From: Enterobacter mori
GTDB taxonomy: Bacteria; Pseudomonadota; Gammaproteobacteria; Enterobacterales; Enterobacteriaceae
Assembly (NCBI RefSeq): GCF_025244905.1
Contig: NZ_CP104285.1
Span: 744,001 to 808,000 of the forward strand
Direction of reading: 5' to 3'
Length of the DNA: 64,000 nt
Shown: piece by piece, positions 5,748-33,851 of the stretch
How positions within the stretch are numbered: the first letter of the stretch is position 1
How the letters are laid out: each line of letters opens with the position of its first letter
Translations under genes and position numbers: made by a program
The notes under the pieces: generated by a model
What the model was told of the DNA's origin: nothing
The model's database searches: none
What the model saw: the letters and a program-made list of their open reading frames with translations, nothing else

Positions 5748-8453
5748 ATGTTAATCAAATTATTAACCAAAGTTTTTGGTAGTCGTAACGATCGTACCCT
5801 GCGCCGTATGCGTAAAGCTGTTGCCGTCATCAACGGTATGGAACCGGCGATGGAAAAGCTGTCAGATGACGAGCTGAAGGCGAAAACGGCGGAGTTCCGC
5901 GCGCGCCTGGAAAAAGGCGAAACCCTGGAAAGCCTGATCCCAGAAGCTTTCGCCGTAGTGCGTGAAGCGAGTAAACGTGTTTTCGGTATGCGTCACTTCG
6001 ACGTGCAGCTGCTGGGTGGTATGGTGCTCAACGAGCGCTGCATCGCGGAAATGCGTACCGGTGAAGGTAAAACTCTGACCGCGACGCTGCCCGCTTACCT
6101 GAACGCACTGACCGGTAAAGGCGTTCACGTCGTTACCGTCAACGACTATCTGGCACAGCGTGACGCCGAAAACAACCGTCCGCTGTTTGAATTCTTAGGC
6201 TTGACCGTGGGCATCAACATGTCCGGTCTGCCTGCGCCAGCCAAGCGTGAAGCGTATAACGCAGACATCACCTACGGCACCAACAACGAGTACGGCTTCG
6301 ACTACCTGCGCGACAACATGGCGTTCAGCCCTGAAGAGCGCGTACAGCGCAAGCTGCACTATGCGCTGGTGGATGAAGTGGACTCCATCCTGATCGATGA
6401 AGCACGTACCCCGCTGATCATCTCCGGCCCGGCCGAGGACAGCTCTGAAATGTACCGTAAAGTCGACAAAATCATTCCGCACCTGCTGCGTCAGGAGAAA
6501 GAGGACTCCGATACCTTCCAGGGCGAAGGTCACTTCTCTGTTGATGAAAAAGCGCGCCAGGTTAACCTGACCGAACGTGGTCTGGTTCAGATTGAAGAAC
6601 TGCTGGTGGCTGAGGGCATTATGGAAGAGGGTGAGTCGCTTTACTCTCCAACTAACATCATGTTGATGCACCACGTAACGGCCGCACTGCGCGCGCACGC
6701 GCTGTTCACTCGCGACGTTGATTACATCGTTAAAGACGGTGAAGTGATCATCGTTGATGAACATACCGGCCGTACTATGCAAGGACGTCGCTGGTCTGAC
6801 GGCCTGCACCAGGCGGTTGAAGCGAAAGAAGGCGTTGATATTCAAAACGAAAACCAGACGCTGGCGTCTATTACTTTCCAGAACTACTTCCGTCTGTACG
6901 AGAAGCTGGCAGGGATGACCGGTACTGCCGATACCGAAGCGTTTGAATTCAGCTCTATCTACAAGCTGGATACCGTGGTTGTTCCTACCAACCGTCCGAT
7001 GATCCGTAAGGATATGCCGGATCTGGTGTACATGACCGAAGCGGAAAAAATTCAGGCGATCATCGAAGATATTCGCGATCGTACCGCGGCAGGCCAGCCA
7101 GTACTGGTGGGGACCATCTCCATTGAGAAATCCGAAGTGGTTTCCAACGAGCTGACCAAAGCGGGCATTAAGCACAACGTTCTCAACGCCAAATTCCACG
7201 CTAAAGAAGCAGATATCGTTGCGCAGGCGGGTTATCCGGCGGCCGTAACCATCGCTACCAACATGGCGGGTCGTGGTACCGATATTATGCTGGGTGGTAG
7301 CTGGCAGGCCGAAGTGGCCGAGCTGGAAAACCCAACACCAGAACAAATTGCGCAGATCAAAGCCGACTGGCAGGTGCGTCACGATGCCGTGCTGGCATCG
7401 GGTGGCCTGCACATCATTGGTACCGAGCGTCACGAATCTCGTCGTATCGATAACCAGCTGCGTGGCCGTGCGGGCCGTCAGGGTGATGCCGGTTCTTCTC
7501 GTTTCTACCTGTCTATGGAAGATGCGCTGATGCGTATTTTCGCCTCCGACCGCGTGTCCGGCATGATGCGTAAACTGGGTATGAAGCCTGGCGAAGCGAT
7601 TGAGCATCCATGGGTCACCAAAGCGATTGCCAACGCGCAGCGTAAAGTGGAAAGCCGTAACTTCGATATTCGTAAGCAACTGCTGGAATATGATGATGTG
7701 GCCAACGATCAGCGTCGTGCGATCTATACCCAGCGTAACGAACTGCTGGACGTGTCCGACGTGAGCGAAACCATCAATAGTATCCGTGAAGACGTGTTCA
7801 AAGCGACTATCGACGCGCATATTCCTCCGCAGTCTCTGGAAGAAATGTGGGATATCGAAGGTCTGCAGGAACGTCTGAAAAATGATTTCGACCTTGAACT
7901 GCCAATTAAAGAGTGGCTGGACAAAGAGCCTGAGCTGCACGAAGAGACGCTGCGTGAACGCATCTTCGAAACTGCGCTGGACGTCTACAAGCGTAAGGAA
8001 GAAGTCGTTGGCGAAGAGATGATGCGTCACTTCGAAAAAGGCGTGATGCTGCAGACGCTCGACTCCCTGTGGAAAGAGCACCTGGCGGCGATGGACTACC
8101 TGCGCCAGGGTATCCACCTGCGTGGATATGCGCAGAAAGATCCGAAGCAGGAGTACAAGCGTGAATCCTTCTCCATGTTTGCCGCTATGCTGGAATCGCT
8201 GAAGTATGAAGTCATCAGCACCCTGAGCAAAGTTCAGGTGCGTATGCCGGAAGAAGTGGAAGCGATGGAGCAGCAGCGTCGCGAAGAAGCTGAGCGTCTG
8301 GCACAGATGCAACAGCTGAGCCACCAGACTGACGAAAGTGAAGCCGCAGCGGCGATCGCAGCGCAGACTGGCGATCGTAAAGTGGGCCGTAACGATCCGT
8401 GCCCATGTGGTTCTGGTAAAAAGTACAAGGCGTGCCACGGCCGTCTGAGCTAA
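5748..8453 (+). CDS. secA: Protein translocase ATPase SecA
   Basis: ATP-driven motor that pushes preproteins through SecYEG. It has 901 residues, the family length. The Walker A motif [11 protein letters not shown] lies near residue 102 and the [11 protein letters not shown] motif near 209. The second nucleotide-fold motif with [14 protein letters not shown] lies in the 570s. The C-terminal zinc and SecB-binding motif [14 protein letters not shown] ends the protein. Translation is expected to be controlled by upstream secM. The very long minus-strand frame opposite this gene is a coding shadow. Confidence 0.98.
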
Positions 8454-8468
8454 GACGTTAACAACTCG

Positions 8469-8496
8469 AAAAGGCGCAGATTTCTGCGCCTTTTTT
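8469..8496 (+). terminator. Rho-independent terminator after secA
   Basis: The stem AAGGCGCAG/CTGCGCCTT with a short loop is followed by a T run (TTTTTT). It lies just upstream of mutT, so mutT is either expressed by readthrough or has its own start. Confidence 0.85.
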
Positions 8497-22612: not shown

Positions 22613-22646
22613 GCGCCGATATTTTAGAGCGCGGCAACTAAACGCA

Positions 22647-22694
22647 GAACCTGTCTTATTGTGTTCTTGCCCAAGAGCACAATGGGACAGGTTC
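22647..22694 (+). other. Long stem-loop between pdhR and aceE
   Basis: The outer stem GAACCTGTC/GACAGGTTC is 9 bp and perfect. It encloses ATTGTG/CACAAT and CTT/AAG in register. No T run follows, so it is not a standard terminator. It may be an attenuation, processing or mRNA-stability element that sets aceEF levels relative to pdhR. Confidence 0.6.
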
Positions 22695-22733
22695 CAGACA
22701 AATCAACGTATTAGATAGATAAGGAATACCCCC

Positions 22734-29179: not shown

Positions 29180-30571
29180 ATGAGTGAATATGGTCAGTAT
29201 TCCGATATTCGTGAATTAAGAATTATGGGCGCAAGGACAGAGCTTGGTCAGGGGCGTACAGCAATGACACACAAACTCGTAGCCCTGGACAAAGAAACTC
29301 TGCAACCTGTTAGCGTAGACTGGTGGTATGAAGATGAATCAGCCCCCTGTTATACCGGGTCTGTATTTACCGATATACGACCAAGCGTGCGCTTAATGGC
29401 TAACTCCGATACTTATCGTTTTGGGGATGTAATTAACATCAGTAACGTTGGTGGCTCAAACGCTGCATTGGCTGTTATTCAGAATAATGGCACCGTTGTG
29501 GCATGGGGCATGCCGCAGAATGGAGGAAGTTCTCCTTCGAGCGATCGTAACCATAACGTAAAATCTATTTATGGTGGCTATGACTGTTCTGCAGCAGTTA
29601 ACGCAGATGGTCAGGTATTTACGTGGTCGGTTGATAGTGATAACACGCTTCCACCAGAGGTTGCCCAGCTGAATGATATTATCGATATCAAAGTAGCGCA
29701 ATATTGGGGTGAAGGAGGAAACTATACCTATTTGGCTTTGAGGGCTAACAAACAGGTGGCTCAATGGACGGATGGAAGGTCGCATAATGATTTTCCTACT
29801 GATATTGCAGAGCGTAAAGATTTCATCGCCATTCAGGTTACGGAGTATGCTTTTGCCGGAATAACGGAGAATGGGCATATTTTAGCATGGGGTAATGAGT
29901 CCTATGGCGGAGCTTTGCCAGACCATTTAAAAGATATTAATGATGCCGTAACGCTCTACAGTAACGATGGCGCATTTGTTGCACTTAGGGCATCCGGCAC
30001 TATTGTGTCCTGGGGGAGTGCGAAACACGGTGGCGATATGCCCGATGATATAGCCAGCCTTACCGATATCGTATCAATCTGTAATACCAGTTCCACATTT
30101 ATTGCCCTTAGAGCAAATGGTAGCGTTGTATTCTGGGGGAGTCAGCGTACATTAATTGTACTTCCTGAGAATATTGCCAGTCTGACGAATATCATTGACG
30201 TACAAGGTGCTATTAACGGTACCTATGCATTTTTAACTGCAGACGGAAATGTGTATTGTTGGGGACAATATGGAGAAGATCTCCCGGAGGGTTTGAATAA
30301 TATTGTATCGGTGACCGCTGCCTGGAACGCCTTTGCTGCACTACGCCGTGATGGAAGCGTTGTTGCATGGGGCGATAGTTTCGAAGGTGGCGACACTACC
30401 CCGGTAGCGGACGAACTTTACAATATTCGCGCGATATATTCCTGTGGCTATCGTTTTCTGGCATTGCGCGATGACGATTTTGCTTTCGAATGGGGTGAAG
30501 AGGCCAGAGAGGACATCACAAAGATGCCGGCGAGTTTACAAGGCAATATCACCTATAGTTTTGTGAAGTGA
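29180..30571 (+). CDS. RCC1-like repeat protein of unknown function
   Basis: A 463-residue protein with no signal peptide or membrane segment. After a 75-residue N-terminal part (MGARTELGQG, KLVALDKETLQPVSVDWWYE) it carries about eight or nine repeats of some 45-50 residues. Each repeat centres on a VVAWG-type strand (VVAWGMPQNGG, ILAWGNESYGG, IVSWGSAKHGG, VVFWGSQ, VYCWGQYG, VVAWGDSFEGG) and often ends in P-x-x-I or FxALR. This is the pattern of a seven-bladed RCC1-like propeller. The gene is distinctly more AT-rich than its neighbours and has no counterpart at this place in E. coli K-12, suggesting horizontal acquisition. Function and partners are unknown. Confidence 0.75.
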   Translation: MSEYGQYSDIRELRIMGARTELGQGRTAMTHKLVALDKETLQPVSVDWWYEDESAPCYTGSVFTDIRPSVRLMANSDTYRFGDVINISNVGGSNAALAVIQNNGTVVAWGMPQNGGSSPSSDRNHNVKSIYGGYDCSAAVNADGQVFTWSVDSDNTLPPEVAQLNDIIDIKVAQYWGEGGNYTYLALRANKQVAQWTDGRSHNDFPTDIAERKDFIAIQVTEYAFAGITENGHILAWGNESYGGALPDHLKDINDAVTLYSNDGAFVALRASGTIVSWGSAKHGGDMPDDIASLTDIVSICNTSSTFIALRANGSVVFWGSQRTLIVLPENIASLTNIIDVQGAINGTYAFLTADGNVYCWGQYGEDLPEGLNNIVSVTAAWNAFAALRRDGSVVAWGDSFEGGDTTPVADELYNIRAIYSCGYRFLALRDDDFAFEWGEEAREDITKMPASLQGNITYSFVK

Positions 30572-31427: not shown

Positions 31428-32957
31428 TTAACGGTGGCGGAATTCTCGGTGTTCGGCGTGGCGTTCAGACGCCTGTTGTCTAAGGCTGGCACGCTGTTCA
31501 CCGCTCAGCGACGCTCGCTGACGGCTTTGCAACCCGCGCTGCTGCTGCGCCTGCCAGCTCGGAGAACGGCTGTCGTTGCCGCTCAGGGCGTTGGCGTAGC
31601 GCTGAGGATGCTGGCTTTGCGTGCGGTGCTCGGTCTGCAGGCGATCCTGACGCGCGTGGGTATTTTCCTGCCGCTCGTGCGGCGTTATCCCGTCGTAGCC
31701 CCGGTAGTTATTGCGTTGAGTGATCTGCCTTAGCTGCTGGGCGGAGGCGGGGCGCTGCACGTTTTGGGTGACGGGATGCTGCAGTTGCGACAGCGATTTC
31801 CCGGTCGATTTTTGCACCTGCGCCAATGCCGCCTGACGCTGGCCGTCGCGGTTAACCGGCTGATGCTGCGTCGCGCTCAAACCGGTGTGGGTGGACGTCG
31901 GATGGAACTGGCTGGCAAGCTGGCTGTTGGTATAGGGCACCCCGTTGCGATACGCCGGGTTGTGCTGCCACACTATATTGTTATCCGTGCGGTGCTCGCC
32001 GGTTATTTTATTGAAATTATTGACGTTGATATTGATGTTATCGCCGTTATGCGAGTATCCGTCGTGATGGTAATCATCGTCATGATGATGATCGTCATCG
32101 TGGTGGTGGTGATCGTCGTCATTGTCCCAGTCGATATTGCTGAACAGCGCATAGGTGGTGGCAACGCCGAGGCTATAGCCGAACCCTTTTACAAAGCTGT
32201 TGGTGAACTGCTCGCCGGGAGACGGGGGGAGATAAACCGGCGGATAGCTGGCGTTTGGCCAGGACCCATAGACGGCCGTTGGGTTATAGGTTGGCACATA
32301 CACCACCTGCGGATCGGCGGGCTCAATCTTTATCACCGTCTCGCTTGCAGGCGCGGCGCCGACCGTTGCGGTGGTACTTTTGGCGGGCGCGGCTTTTTTA
32401 ACCGAGGTCACCGTCTGTTGAGGAGTCGACTGCAGCGCGCCGGTTTGCTGCGCCAGCGCGCGAAGACGCTGCACGGAGTACATGACGTCCTTCGGCTGAG
32501 CCAGAAACGCATCCCCTAAATTTTGCACCCACTCCGGGTTACCGCCCATCAGCGTCATCAGCTGTGGGAAGGCCACCAGCGATTTTACGCTGGCATCCCA
32601 CGGCTGGCCGGAGACGGCCTGGATCGCAGCGTCGCCCTGCCGCTTTGGATTGTCCTGCGACCACTGCGCGGCCTGGATGACGTTTGAAGGGTAGGTCGAT
32701 GCCATCAGGATTTGCGAAAGCAGCGCATCGGGGTAGAGCGCAATGGGCGCCGTCCACTGATCGATTTGAGCCGCCGTATAAGTAGGGGCGACGACCGGCG
32801 CGGGCTGAGCAGTTGGGGTGACGGGTTGTTGCGCGACAGGCGCAGGGGACACCGGGGTTTCTGTCGCGCGGCTTTTAACAAACATCACGCCAGAGGCGGC
32901 GAATAACCCGGTACTGCACAGAAGAACAAGCAGATGTGGCTTAAAGGGCAACTTCAT
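31428..32957 (-). CDS. DUF3300 family exported protein (YacH-like)
   Basis: A 509-residue protein starting at ATG 32957, which is preceded by GGAG; the longer frame has no ribosome site. It has an N-terminal membrane anchor or signal (HLLVLLCSTGLFAASGVMF) and a Pro/Ala/Val-rich linker. The DUF3300 core follows (IALYPDALLSQILMASTYP, NPEWVQNLGDAFLAQPKDVM, VVYVPTYNPTAVYGSWP). A dense Asp/His stretch spans residues about 285-310 (DNDDDHHHHDDDHHHDDD). The C-terminal third is rich in Gln, Arg and His and looks disordered. E. coli yacH, also DUF3300, occupies the same position between lpd and acnB. Function is unknown; a metal-binding or envelope role is only a guess. Confidence 0.8.
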   Translation of the reverse strand: MKLPFKPHLLVLLCSTGLFAASGVMFVKSRATETPVSPAPVAQQPVTPTAQPAPVVAPTYTAAQIDQWTAPIALYPDALLSQILMASTYPSNVIQAAQWSQDNPKRQGDAAIQAVSGQPWDASVKSLVAFPQLMTLMGGNPEWVQNLGDAFLAQPKDVMYSVQRLRALAQQTGALQSTPQQTVTSVKKAAPAKSTTATVGAAPASETVIKIEPADPQVVYVPTYNPTAVYGSWPNASYPPVYLPPSPGEQFTNSFVKGFGYSLGVATTYALFSNIDWDNDDDHHHHDDDHHHDDDYHHDGYSHNGDNININVNNFNKITGEHRTDNNIVWQHNPAYRNGVPYTNSQLASQFHPTSTHTGLSATQHQPVNRDGQRQAALAQVQKSTGKSLSQLQHPVTQNVQRPASAQQLRQITQRNNYRGYDGITPHERQENTHARQDRLQTEHRTQSQHPQRYANALSGNDSRSPSWQAQQQRGLQSRQRASLSGEQRASLRQQASERHAEHREFRHR

Positions 32958-33138
32958 ATAGTGACTCCGACGAGACCAGCGCAGTGCCCTCAGGCGCTGC
33001 AATTGCCGCGAGTATTATTCACCCGTCTTTTACAGTTTTGACGATTGTTGGGAATTCACCAGAAGGTCCGGATAAAGAGTGTGAGTATTTATTACACAAT
33101 TTTGCGGGGCGGTTGAAAAGCCGAAGGGTTCCTCAGAA

Positions 33139-33158
33139 GGCCGCTCTTGCGAGCGGCC
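33139..33158 (-). terminator. 3' hairpin of the 38-codon ORF
   Basis: The perfect 8-bp inverted repeat GGCCGCTC/GAGCGGCC has a 4-base loop. It lies 5 bases beyond the stop of the small minus-strand ORF, followed by TTCTGAGG. The T run is poor but the placement is that of a transcript end. Confidence 0.5.
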
Positions 33159-33163
33159 AGCAG

Positions 33164-33280
33164 CTAATTGCCGAGGTTAACCACAAACAGTACAGTGATG
33201 TCGGATATGTTCCAGCCACCATGCAGTGCGGTAAGCAGTAAACCGGTCACAACGATCAGCGCATAGACTCGCATCTCCAT
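33164..33280 (-). CDS. Candidate small hydrophobic peptide (38 aa), putative type I toxin-like
   Basis: Minus-strand ORF from ATG 33280 to TAG. AGGAA lies 8 bases before the ATG. The product starts MEMR, then has a hydrophobic segment VYALIVVTGLLLTAL (residues 5-19), the polar turn HGGWNISD, and a second hydrophobic segment ITVLFVVNL. Size and hydrophobicity are those of membrane-active type I toxins or small membrane proteins. I do not recognise it as a member of Hok, Ldr, Ibs, TisB, ZorO, DinQ or ShoB. A 3' hairpin follows the stop, and the leader contains a block complementary to the divergent RNA at 33560. Translation is unproven. Confidence 0.5.
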   Translation of the reverse strand: MEMRVYALIVVTGLLLTALHGGWNISDITVLFVVNLGN

Positions 33281-33345
33281 TGCGTGCGTTCCTGTAAAGG
33301 CTACGCCGGTTCTTTCTTCACCGGGAAAGACTGAACCAGGCAAAT

Positions 33346-33402
33346 GAACGTATTGCCGCGTAGGTTACGGAACTGCTTCCGGGCCCGGTGACTGGTTGCT
33401 AC
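33346..33402 (-). promoter_or_regulatory. Predicted antisense-pairing site in the leader of the 38-codon ORF
   Basis: Read on the minus strand, this leader segment holds GTAGCA (33397-33402), CACCGGGC (33383-33390) and GCGGCAATACGTTC (33346-33359). Each is the exact complement of a block in the divergent small RNA, in the right order for one antiparallel duplex. The 14-nt block lies 66 bases before the ATG. The toxin promoter must lie above 33402 if all three blocks are transcribed; I could not identify it. Confidence 0.45.
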
Positions 33403-33523
33403 ACCAGCGAAGCAGGCCGGAAATAACAGTAGCTCAGTGTGTTAAGCTTGAGAAGATGAGTGGCTGGATTACATTCTATTTCATTCGAAACTGGATAGAG
33501 CCTCGTAAACCTGCATTCTGGAG

Positions 33524-33552
33524 TTGCGGATTGTTTAGCTTTAGAGCATTAT
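33524..33552 (+). promoter_or_regulatory. Candidate promoter of the small RNA
   Basis: TTGCGG (33524-33529) and CATTAT (33547-33552) are separated by 17 bases, a moderate sigma70 match. Transcription would start near 33558-33560, at the first base of the 14-nt complementary block. Confidence 0.45.
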
Positions 33553-33559
33553 TCTTGTC

Positions 33560-33639
33560 GAACGTATTGCCGCAAATCTGCCAGCCCGGTGTGCTACCAC
33601 CGCAAGGCAACAAATTAACCGCTATCAGGCGGTTTTTTT
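33560..33639 (+). ncRNA. Candidate antisense small RNA (about 80 nt), putative type I antitoxin
   Basis: The predicted transcript begins GAACGTATTGCCGC and has GCCCGGTG and TGCTAC in the middle. It ends in an intrinsic terminator: stem AACCGC/GCGGTT (33617-33622 and 33629-33634) followed by seven T. No ORF accounts for it. It is transcribed away from the 38-codon ORF and pairs in trans with that ORF's leader. This arrangement matches IstR, OrzO and OhsC antitoxin RNAs. Existence of the RNA is inferred from promoter, complementarity and terminator only. Confidence 0.5.
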
Positions 33640-33722
33640 GTGCCCAAAATTCGTCTCGTCTCTCCACTACACCATGCTTAACGATTCAGCAAATTTTTTA
33701 ATGTTGCTTTTTTGTAAACGGA

Positions 33723-33751
33723 TTAACACTGTGCAGAAATCCTGCTATGCT
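33723..33751 (+). promoter_or_regulatory. acnB promoter
   Basis: TTAACA (33723-33728) and TATGCT (33746-33751) are separated by 17 bases. TGC before the -10 gives the extended form. It leaves a leader of about 95 nt before the GTG start. Confidence 0.7.
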
Positions 33752-33851
33752 GCCCGACGCGGTATCGGGCATTTACCCTACAAACTGCTGTCTCACAGGA
33801 GCGTGAAGAGAACGCCCGCCGCATATGACAATGAGAGCGAGGAGAACCGTC

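Follow-up and report, generated by a model that had tools for sequence, protein, structure and literature searches.

A probable, strongly diverged timPR-like type I toxin-antitoxin locus between a DUF3300 gene and acnB in Enterobacter mori

Two divergent units in the DUF3300-acnB gap

The window, i.e. the 64,000-nucleotide stretch of the Enterobacter mori genome analysed here, contains two divergent units in the gap between a DUF3300 gene and acnB, flanks that had been named in a first-pass annotation and were corroborated by PF11737 and TIGR00117 matches. The features of this interval are listed below, with the grounds for each in parentheses.

31428-32957, minus: DUF3300 gene, which we take to be yacH (PF11737)
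33133-33420, minus: predicted timP (ryfA) mRNA (RF00126 match, model positions 1-296)
33139-33158, minus: timP terminator stem GGCCGCUCGCAAGAGCGGCC, a GC-rich 3' hairpin with a weak U-tract (sequence; aligns to the ryfA-model terminator)
33164-33280, minus: TimP-like ORF, 38 codons plus stop (dN/dS, third-position bias, motifs common to other ryfA/timP ORFs)
33286-33306, minus: SL4 hairpin hiding the Shine-Dalgarno sequence (read from sequence)
33293-33290, minus: AGGA, Shine-Dalgarno sequence (inside SL4, 9 nt before the ATG)
33319-33325, minus: pseudoknot strand CCCGGUG in SL3 (alignment, covariation)
33346-33359, minus: predicted TimR target, SL2 loop and 5' arm, GCGGCAAUACGUUC (complementarity, between-genome variability)
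33384-33390, minus: pseudoknot strand CACCGGG in SL1 (alignment, covariation)
33426-33431, minus: putative timP -10 element TACTGT (alignment)
33524-33552, plus: putative TimR promoter TTGCGG-17-CATTAT (conserved alignment blocks)
33559-33640, plus: TimR-like small RNA of about 80 nt (address GAACGUAUUGCCGC at 33560-33573, then core hairpin and terminator)
33617-33640, plus: TimR intrinsic terminator (terminator scan)
from 33852, plus: acnB (TIGR00117)

The first-pass annotation had described a hydrophobic minus-strand ORF of 38 codons with a ribosome site and a 3' hairpin, and a divergent plus-strand unit of about 80 nt with a promoter-like sequence and a strong intrinsic terminator, and all of these parts were recovered at the positions given above. 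The timP leader is about 139 nt long, with the ATG at leader position 140, and the -10 pattern TAnnnT is present in all 13 rows displayed of the 23 aligned. The terminator scan returned 3 terminator-like sites compared with 1.4 in shuffles, which is weak evidence when taken alone, and the timP 3' hairpin is absent from its list. As for the plus-strand promoter, TTGCGG-17-CATTAT is a poor consensus match, yet its positions are conserved across the aligned genomes, and it is kept in five of the six toxin-less relatives aligned. The better consensus match of the promoter scan, at 33448-33475, falls in a region lost by four of these six, in which the remainder of the small-RNA gene is complete. 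TTGCGG-17-CATTAT is most likely the promoter, from which the RNA would begin with the stretch complementary to the timP leader; the transcript starts, placed by conservation, would lie at about 33420 for timP and 33559 for TimR. Elsewhere in the window, a 463-aa ORF (29180-30571, plus) contains repeats that look RCC1-type by eye.

The minus-strand ORF is under coding constraint

The ORF encodes a hydrophobic peptide of 38 residues, MEMRVYALIVVTGLLLTALHGGWNISDITVLFVVNLGN, whose residues 5-19 reach a mean hydropathy of 2.44; a signal-like N-terminal stretch is thus found in an ORF that begins about 140 nt from the predicted transcript start. Comparison of 21 sequences with 38-codon ORFs revealed purifying selection (pS 0.170, pN 0.046, dN/dS 0.25), compared with dN/dS values of 2.02 and 1.17 in the shifted frames of the same sequences, and the differences at codon positions 1, 2 and 3 numbered 406, 374 and 1108. 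Of the 24 loci from relatives that were examined first, 22 retain the frame. No Pfam or NCBIfam family was found for the peptide above chance (NCBIfam none, Pfam only at E 0.2), and a protein-family name was rejected on these grounds. GGWNISD and LIVV motifs are common to the window peptide and other ryfA/timP ORFs, and intermediate peptides, e.g. MRRSSLYLLIVVLGMALGAGNGGWSISDI..., bridge the window peptide and other TimP-type peptides. At one relative's locus (L067:1501-1648) the leader is intact and the TimP frame follows the family only over about its first 20 residues.

Homology to ryfA/timP

The default Rfam scan of the window reported only tp2 (22618-22730, minus), PssrA (2653-2745, plus) and STnc40 (8429-8496, plus), all over their cut-offs, and not ryfA. 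When the threshold was lowered, RF00126 (ryfA) yielded a full-length match to 33420-33133 on the minus strand with 32.7 bits and E 1.8e-6; the default scan omits the locus because this score is under the 80-bit gathering score of RF00126, at which the locus is not a member. In its own genome the locus is the sole RF00126 match below E 0.7, the next one having E 0.8. Among 14 control genomes, matches at E <= 0.01 were found in one (E. coli), and matches at E <= 10 in six.

For the reverse comparison we used a covariance model (R1) of the 145-nt leader, built from 23 genus sequences (alignment A1). R1 gave full-length matches, with E values from 2e-13 to 1e-4, to five ryfA loci over the Rfam cut-off (L028, L029, L030, L025 and L012), among them L028 (RF00126 91.2 bits, R1 E 2e-13), L025 (124.7 bits, E 5.6e-6) and L012 (251 bits, E 1.2e-4). 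Overall, R1 aligned over its full length with 10 of the 30 RF00126 loci at E <= 1 and gave no such match in the other 20. Three further loci with the same pseudoknot (L079, L080 and L084) also miss the RF00126 cut-off. The Rfam cut-off is a curation threshold, and because the full-length match at E 1.8e-6 is accompanied by reciprocal matches that reach loci over the cut-off, the window locus is, on sequence comparison, a timPR homologue that is not a member at the Rfam threshold.

According to Andresen 2020 (PMC7667032), ryfA is the type I toxin mRNA timP, which encodes a toxic inner-membrane protein of 38 residues and is repressed by the divergent sRNA TimR. The window locus shares with timP/timR (ryfA/STnc2070; RF00126) of Salmonella and E. 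coli the divergent layout and the 38-codon membrane peptide, as well as the far-upstream SL2 target, the 7-bp SL1-SL3 pseudoknot, the Shine-Dalgarno sequence in SL4 and the GC-rich 3' hairpin. It differs in its diverged peptide, its score under the Rfam cut-off, its address sequence and its site, which is DUF3300-acnB in the window and sseA-sseB in E. coli K-12. On the account of PMC7667032, RyfA1/RyfB1 of Shigella dysenteriae belong to the same family in another host, RyfB1 being named there as the TimR homologue and RyfA1 as the timP homologue. The likeness to tisB/istR-1, zorO/orzO, shoB/ohsC and dinQ/agrB, in which a divergent small RNA likewise represses a small membrane-toxin mRNA (PMC7667032), is one of layout, and many mRNAs of the tisB/zorO/shoB/dinQ type are described as needing processing for activity, whereas timP does not (PMC7667032, PMC11228461).

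The first-pass annotation had called the locus a candidate undescribed type I toxin-antitoxin-like system. Its type I-like character is upheld by the divergent antisense arrangement and the co-varying pairing, and "undescribed" has to be dropped, RF00126 ryfA being timP. Its suggestion of a new family does not survive the full-length, low-scoring RF00126 match and the timP pseudoknot, and its comparison with tisB, zorO, shoB and dinQ left out the actual relative, timPR. As judged from sequence, the window locus is a strongly diverged timPR relative; what is new is the member and its site, not the kind of system.

The leader pseudoknot is conserved and co-varies

Translation of timP is reported to require a 7-bp SL1-SL3 pseudoknot, which is undone when Salmonella TimR binds SL2, and the timP Shine-Dalgarno sequence is located in SL4 (PMC11228461). 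In the window, the strands CACCGGG (33390-33384) and CCCGGUG (33325-33319) make up a seven-pair SL1-SL3 pseudoknot in the homologous register. All seven positions pair in 38 of the 41 rows of the leader alignment, in which two extra rows are spurious window fragments and two L105 rows appear to duplicate two of L073; the exceptions are L077 and L081, with six pairs, and L086, without the 3' strand. Among the 30 RF00126 loci, the pseudoknot in homologous register was the best helix in 27, while L030 had its best helix in a different register and L014 and L031 had no pseudoknot.

Covariation was assessed in 51 leaders, a set that includes the earlier failures (L014, L031, L077, L081 and L086) and 3 of the 23 genus leaders, and that leaves out rows duplicating another locus as well as L068 and L069. 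Of its 347 pseudoknot cells, 98.0% were paired, and both-side changes occurred in six of the seven pairs. There were 41 both-side-change cells compared with 9.0 in shuffles, and the covariation score was reached by 0 of 500 shuffles, which, like the permutations below, ignore the kinship of the genomes. Sliding the strands by 1-3 columns gave pairing of 25-59%. Further standard pair types numbered 13 compared with 11.1 in shuffles, a count reached by 53 of the 500. In a hand-picked set of 31 leaders without the five failures, 99.5% of cells were paired. Within the genus, only 1 of the 39 pairs in the nested leader fold co-varies. The Shine-Dalgarno sequence is predicted to be sequestered in SL4, where the sequence offers GCGU...ACGC and CCU/AGG; only the inner CCU/AGG pairs are retained in the consensus fold, which assigns GCGU to a different partner.

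TimR and leader addresses change together

The exact complementarity between the small RNA and the ORF leader, also pointed out in the first-pass annotation, extends over 14 nt, from 33560-33573 in the plus-strand RNA to 33359-33346 in the leader. The predicted duplex has an energy of -40.5 kcal/mol. When the 40-nt sRNA end was dinucleotide-shuffled 1000 times (mean -25.2, sd 3.1), this value was never reached, although the best shuffle fell only narrowly short at -39.4. Leader columns are on average 94% identical within the genus, and the most variable 12-column windows fall in columns 61-79, the SL2 loop. The predicted TimR 5' end tracks this loop: the window reads AATACGTTC on both sides, and the address at other loci is AAAACCCCAA (L041), AATTCCTCA (L054) or AATCATCAAC (L058).

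The 23 genomes yield 16 different segments for the leader and 11 for TimR. Own TimR and leader segments match at a mean of 11.7 of 13 positions (range 11 to 13), which 0 of 10000 permutations reached; swapped segments from differing leaders agree at 8.1 of 13 on average, and at up to 13 (486 comparisons). Ranked by duplex energy, the own leader comes first of 23 for only 9 TimRs and second to sixth for the others, as addresses are common to relatives. The strongest duplex of all, moreover, is a swapped one (-50.1), ahead of the best own duplex (-49.4). Among 26 loci outside the window, 12 have an address that is repeated exactly over 12-18 nt, with letters quite different from locus to locus, and the longest exact repeat at the other 14 measures 6-11 nt.

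Besides its address, the window TimR contains CCCGGUG, which could pair with SL1. This motif is found in 21 of the 23 genus TimRs and is absent from those 26 other loci (L083 has UCCGGUG), and the idea that TimR copies the SL3 pseudoknot strand was rejected as a family feature on the latter count. Conservation of CCCGGUG would be equally explicable by a hairpin in the TimR core.

Distribution and the acnB site

Across the family, R1 matches came from 12 genera and from 23 of the 295 genomes searched, with filters that lose some weak matches. In 19 of the 26 other-genus R1 loci (L066-L091), acnB lies within about 1.5 kb on either side (L066-L079, L082, L083, L085, L086 and L088), and in the remaining seven it does not (L080, L081, L084, L087 and L089-L091). 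Because L028-L030, which are over the Rfam cut-off and occupy the same places as L082, L083 and L085, are acnB-linked as well, the acnB site is, on these comparisons, an old home of the timPR family that is common to several genera. The window-type peptide was found at 14 loci, whose hosts are Enterobacter chuandaensis, asburiae, mori, wuhouensis and quasihormaechei, E. genomosp. O and an uncultured Enterobacter, together with Huaxiibacter, Lelliottia, Leclercia, Atlantibacter and Cedecea. In E. coli, a blastn search with window positions 33030-33825 gave matches in 5375 of 5426 genomes, none over 80% of the query, and the 20 matches listed cover only the acnB-side end (query 638-794), so that the locus was not found in E. 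coli at blastn sensitivity. A mobile origin was rejected, as plasmid and phage collections contained no tblastn match at E 0.01.

Second copies and antitoxins without toxins

Away from the acnB copy, RF00126 matches over the cut-off occurred in 39 of the 61 genus genomes; the flanks of one such second copy (L119) are presumably ybfA and phrB. The second timPR copy was taken from 18 genomes with an acnB-site leader, and 17 were compared, G339 being excluded for an acnB copy without an ORF. With TimR2 ends set by position, the mean predicted energies of own pairs were -30.7 (TimR1-timP1) and -34.7 (TimR2-timP2), compared with -19.4 (TimR1-timP2) and -21.0 (TimR2-timP1) for crossed pairs, and own pairing was predicted to be better both ways in all 17 genomes. 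In other genera, L073 and L084 each have two timPR copies close together whose SL2 loops differ.

At the acnB site, a TimR core of that type (27 nt, up to 3 mismatches) was found in 32 of the 61 genus genomes and a full-length timP leader in 25, with a 69-nt match in G296. Leader, ORF and TimR occur together in 24 genomes, that of the window included, and the ORF accompanies 24 of the 25 full-length leaders. None of the 61 has a full-length leader without the TimR core. Conversely, seven genomes lack a TimP ORF and still have a TimR gene together with its promoter and address (G296, G339, G340, G345, G323, G335 and G324; toxin-less loci L133 in G296, L056 in G339, L141 in G324, and L060 and L062-L064), and G348 retains only the TimR core and terminator. 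The deletions at the toxin-less sites have at least five different ends, by eye. This pattern is compatible with a toxin and its antitoxin, and the asymmetry is suggestive only: related genomes in the count are not independent, and the toxin gene, as the larger target, would be expected to be lost on its own more often.

In the window's own genome, the RF00126 search detected no timP2. At the presumed ybfA-phrB site, a repeat-like insert occupies the place of timP2 and adjoins a complete-looking TimR2 (C1:1315.67 kb); a second TimR2 (C1:4642.84 kb) adjoins an ORF that we named zapB-like by eye. Both lie outside the window:

G000:C1:1315668-1315692 (L139): TimR2-like gene without detected toxin; terminator remains
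C1:4642844-4642868 (L140): TimR2-like gene without detected toxin

In G340, a TimR2 core runs directly into a timP2 copy whose leader is missing its 5' part (L150).

Proposed mechanism and alternative explanations

We consider the locus very probably a divergent timPR type I toxin-antitoxin module, and our confidence is equally high for the family assignment and the antisense pairing taken together. Homology, leader structure, coding constraint and co-varying antisense pairing are observed here, and transcription, membrane toxicity and repression by TimR would follow the Salmonella precedent. The minus-strand RNA would be the timP mRNA, with its Shine-Dalgarno sequence shut in SL4, and the SL1-SL3 pseudoknot would be required to translate the small inner-membrane peptide. 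The plus-strand RNA would be the TimR antitoxin, whose 5' end would pair with the SL2 loop, undo the pseudoknot and thereby stop translation, as in Salmonella. The module in the window probably works, and toxic action of its peptide is likely by analogy. Against the timPR assignment we count the 32.7 bits compared with 80, a site other than sseA-sseB, a peptide without a family match, swapped segments that sometimes agree at 13 of 13 positions, and a swapped duplex that tops the own ones.

That the minus-strand RNA is instead a regulatory RNA with an incidental ORF, as in the RyfA view from pathogenic E. coli, is suggested by peptide-disrupted ryfA alleles that still complemented a ryfA mutant of E. 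coli CFT073 (PMC13188913). This is highly improbable for the present locus in view of the low dN/dS relative to the shifted frames, the third-position bias and the near-constant presence of the ORF beside full-length leaders. We give just as little credence to a decayed remnant: the complete set is indeed confined to 24 of 61 genus genomes, and deletion scars were read at several of the toxin-less acnB sites, but in the window itself no part is broken in its sequence, and the two address strands match along 14 nt. Least credible of all is convergence, i.e. an independent type I system unrelated to timPR. The diverged peptide, the different site and the score under the Rfam cut-off would agree with it, whereas the full-length two-way covariance-model homology, the same pseudoknot in the same register and the intermediate peptides speak against it; an independent new family was rejected by the RF00126 match and R1.

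A variant within the timPR explanation has a larger, though still minor, chance of being correct, namely that TimP and TimR form a pair as proposed and that the peptide natively serves a mild membrane or envelope function instead of arresting growth. Native derepression in Salmonella is reported to leave growth unimpaired and to provoke no more than mild Cpx stress, although timP overexpression is lethal there (PMC7667032); the absence of full-length leaders lacking a TimR core among the 61 genus genomes, together with the seven TimR genes without a toxin ORF, also weighs against this variant. A further point against the main reading is that deletion of timR does not slow the growth of Salmonella (PMC7667032), which makes native toxicity a tentative part of it.

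Implications for the timPR family

The titles and abstract openings retrieved mentioned no acnB-linked or Enterobacter timPR, although Fig. S3 of PMC7667032 may include relatives of this branch; the acnB site, the address diversification and the orphan antitoxins are apparently new. As a speculation that we hold rather doubtful in its entirety, timPR may be a multi-site family in which the SL2 loop and the TimR 5' end co-diversify into orthogonal addresses, allowing several insulated copies per cell, and in which the antitoxin outlives the toxin, orphan TimRs being kept for immunity, should a timP with their address re-enter, or for a free regulatory role. The present locus extends timPR to the DUF3300-acnB site and to a divergent branch missed by the curated threshold of Rfam. 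The natural series of matched loop and antitoxin addresses, with many genomes apparently running two insulated copies, offers material on how a type I antitoxin shifts its specificity without killing the host, and the toxin-less antitoxins offer material on the fate of an antitoxin once its toxin is lost.
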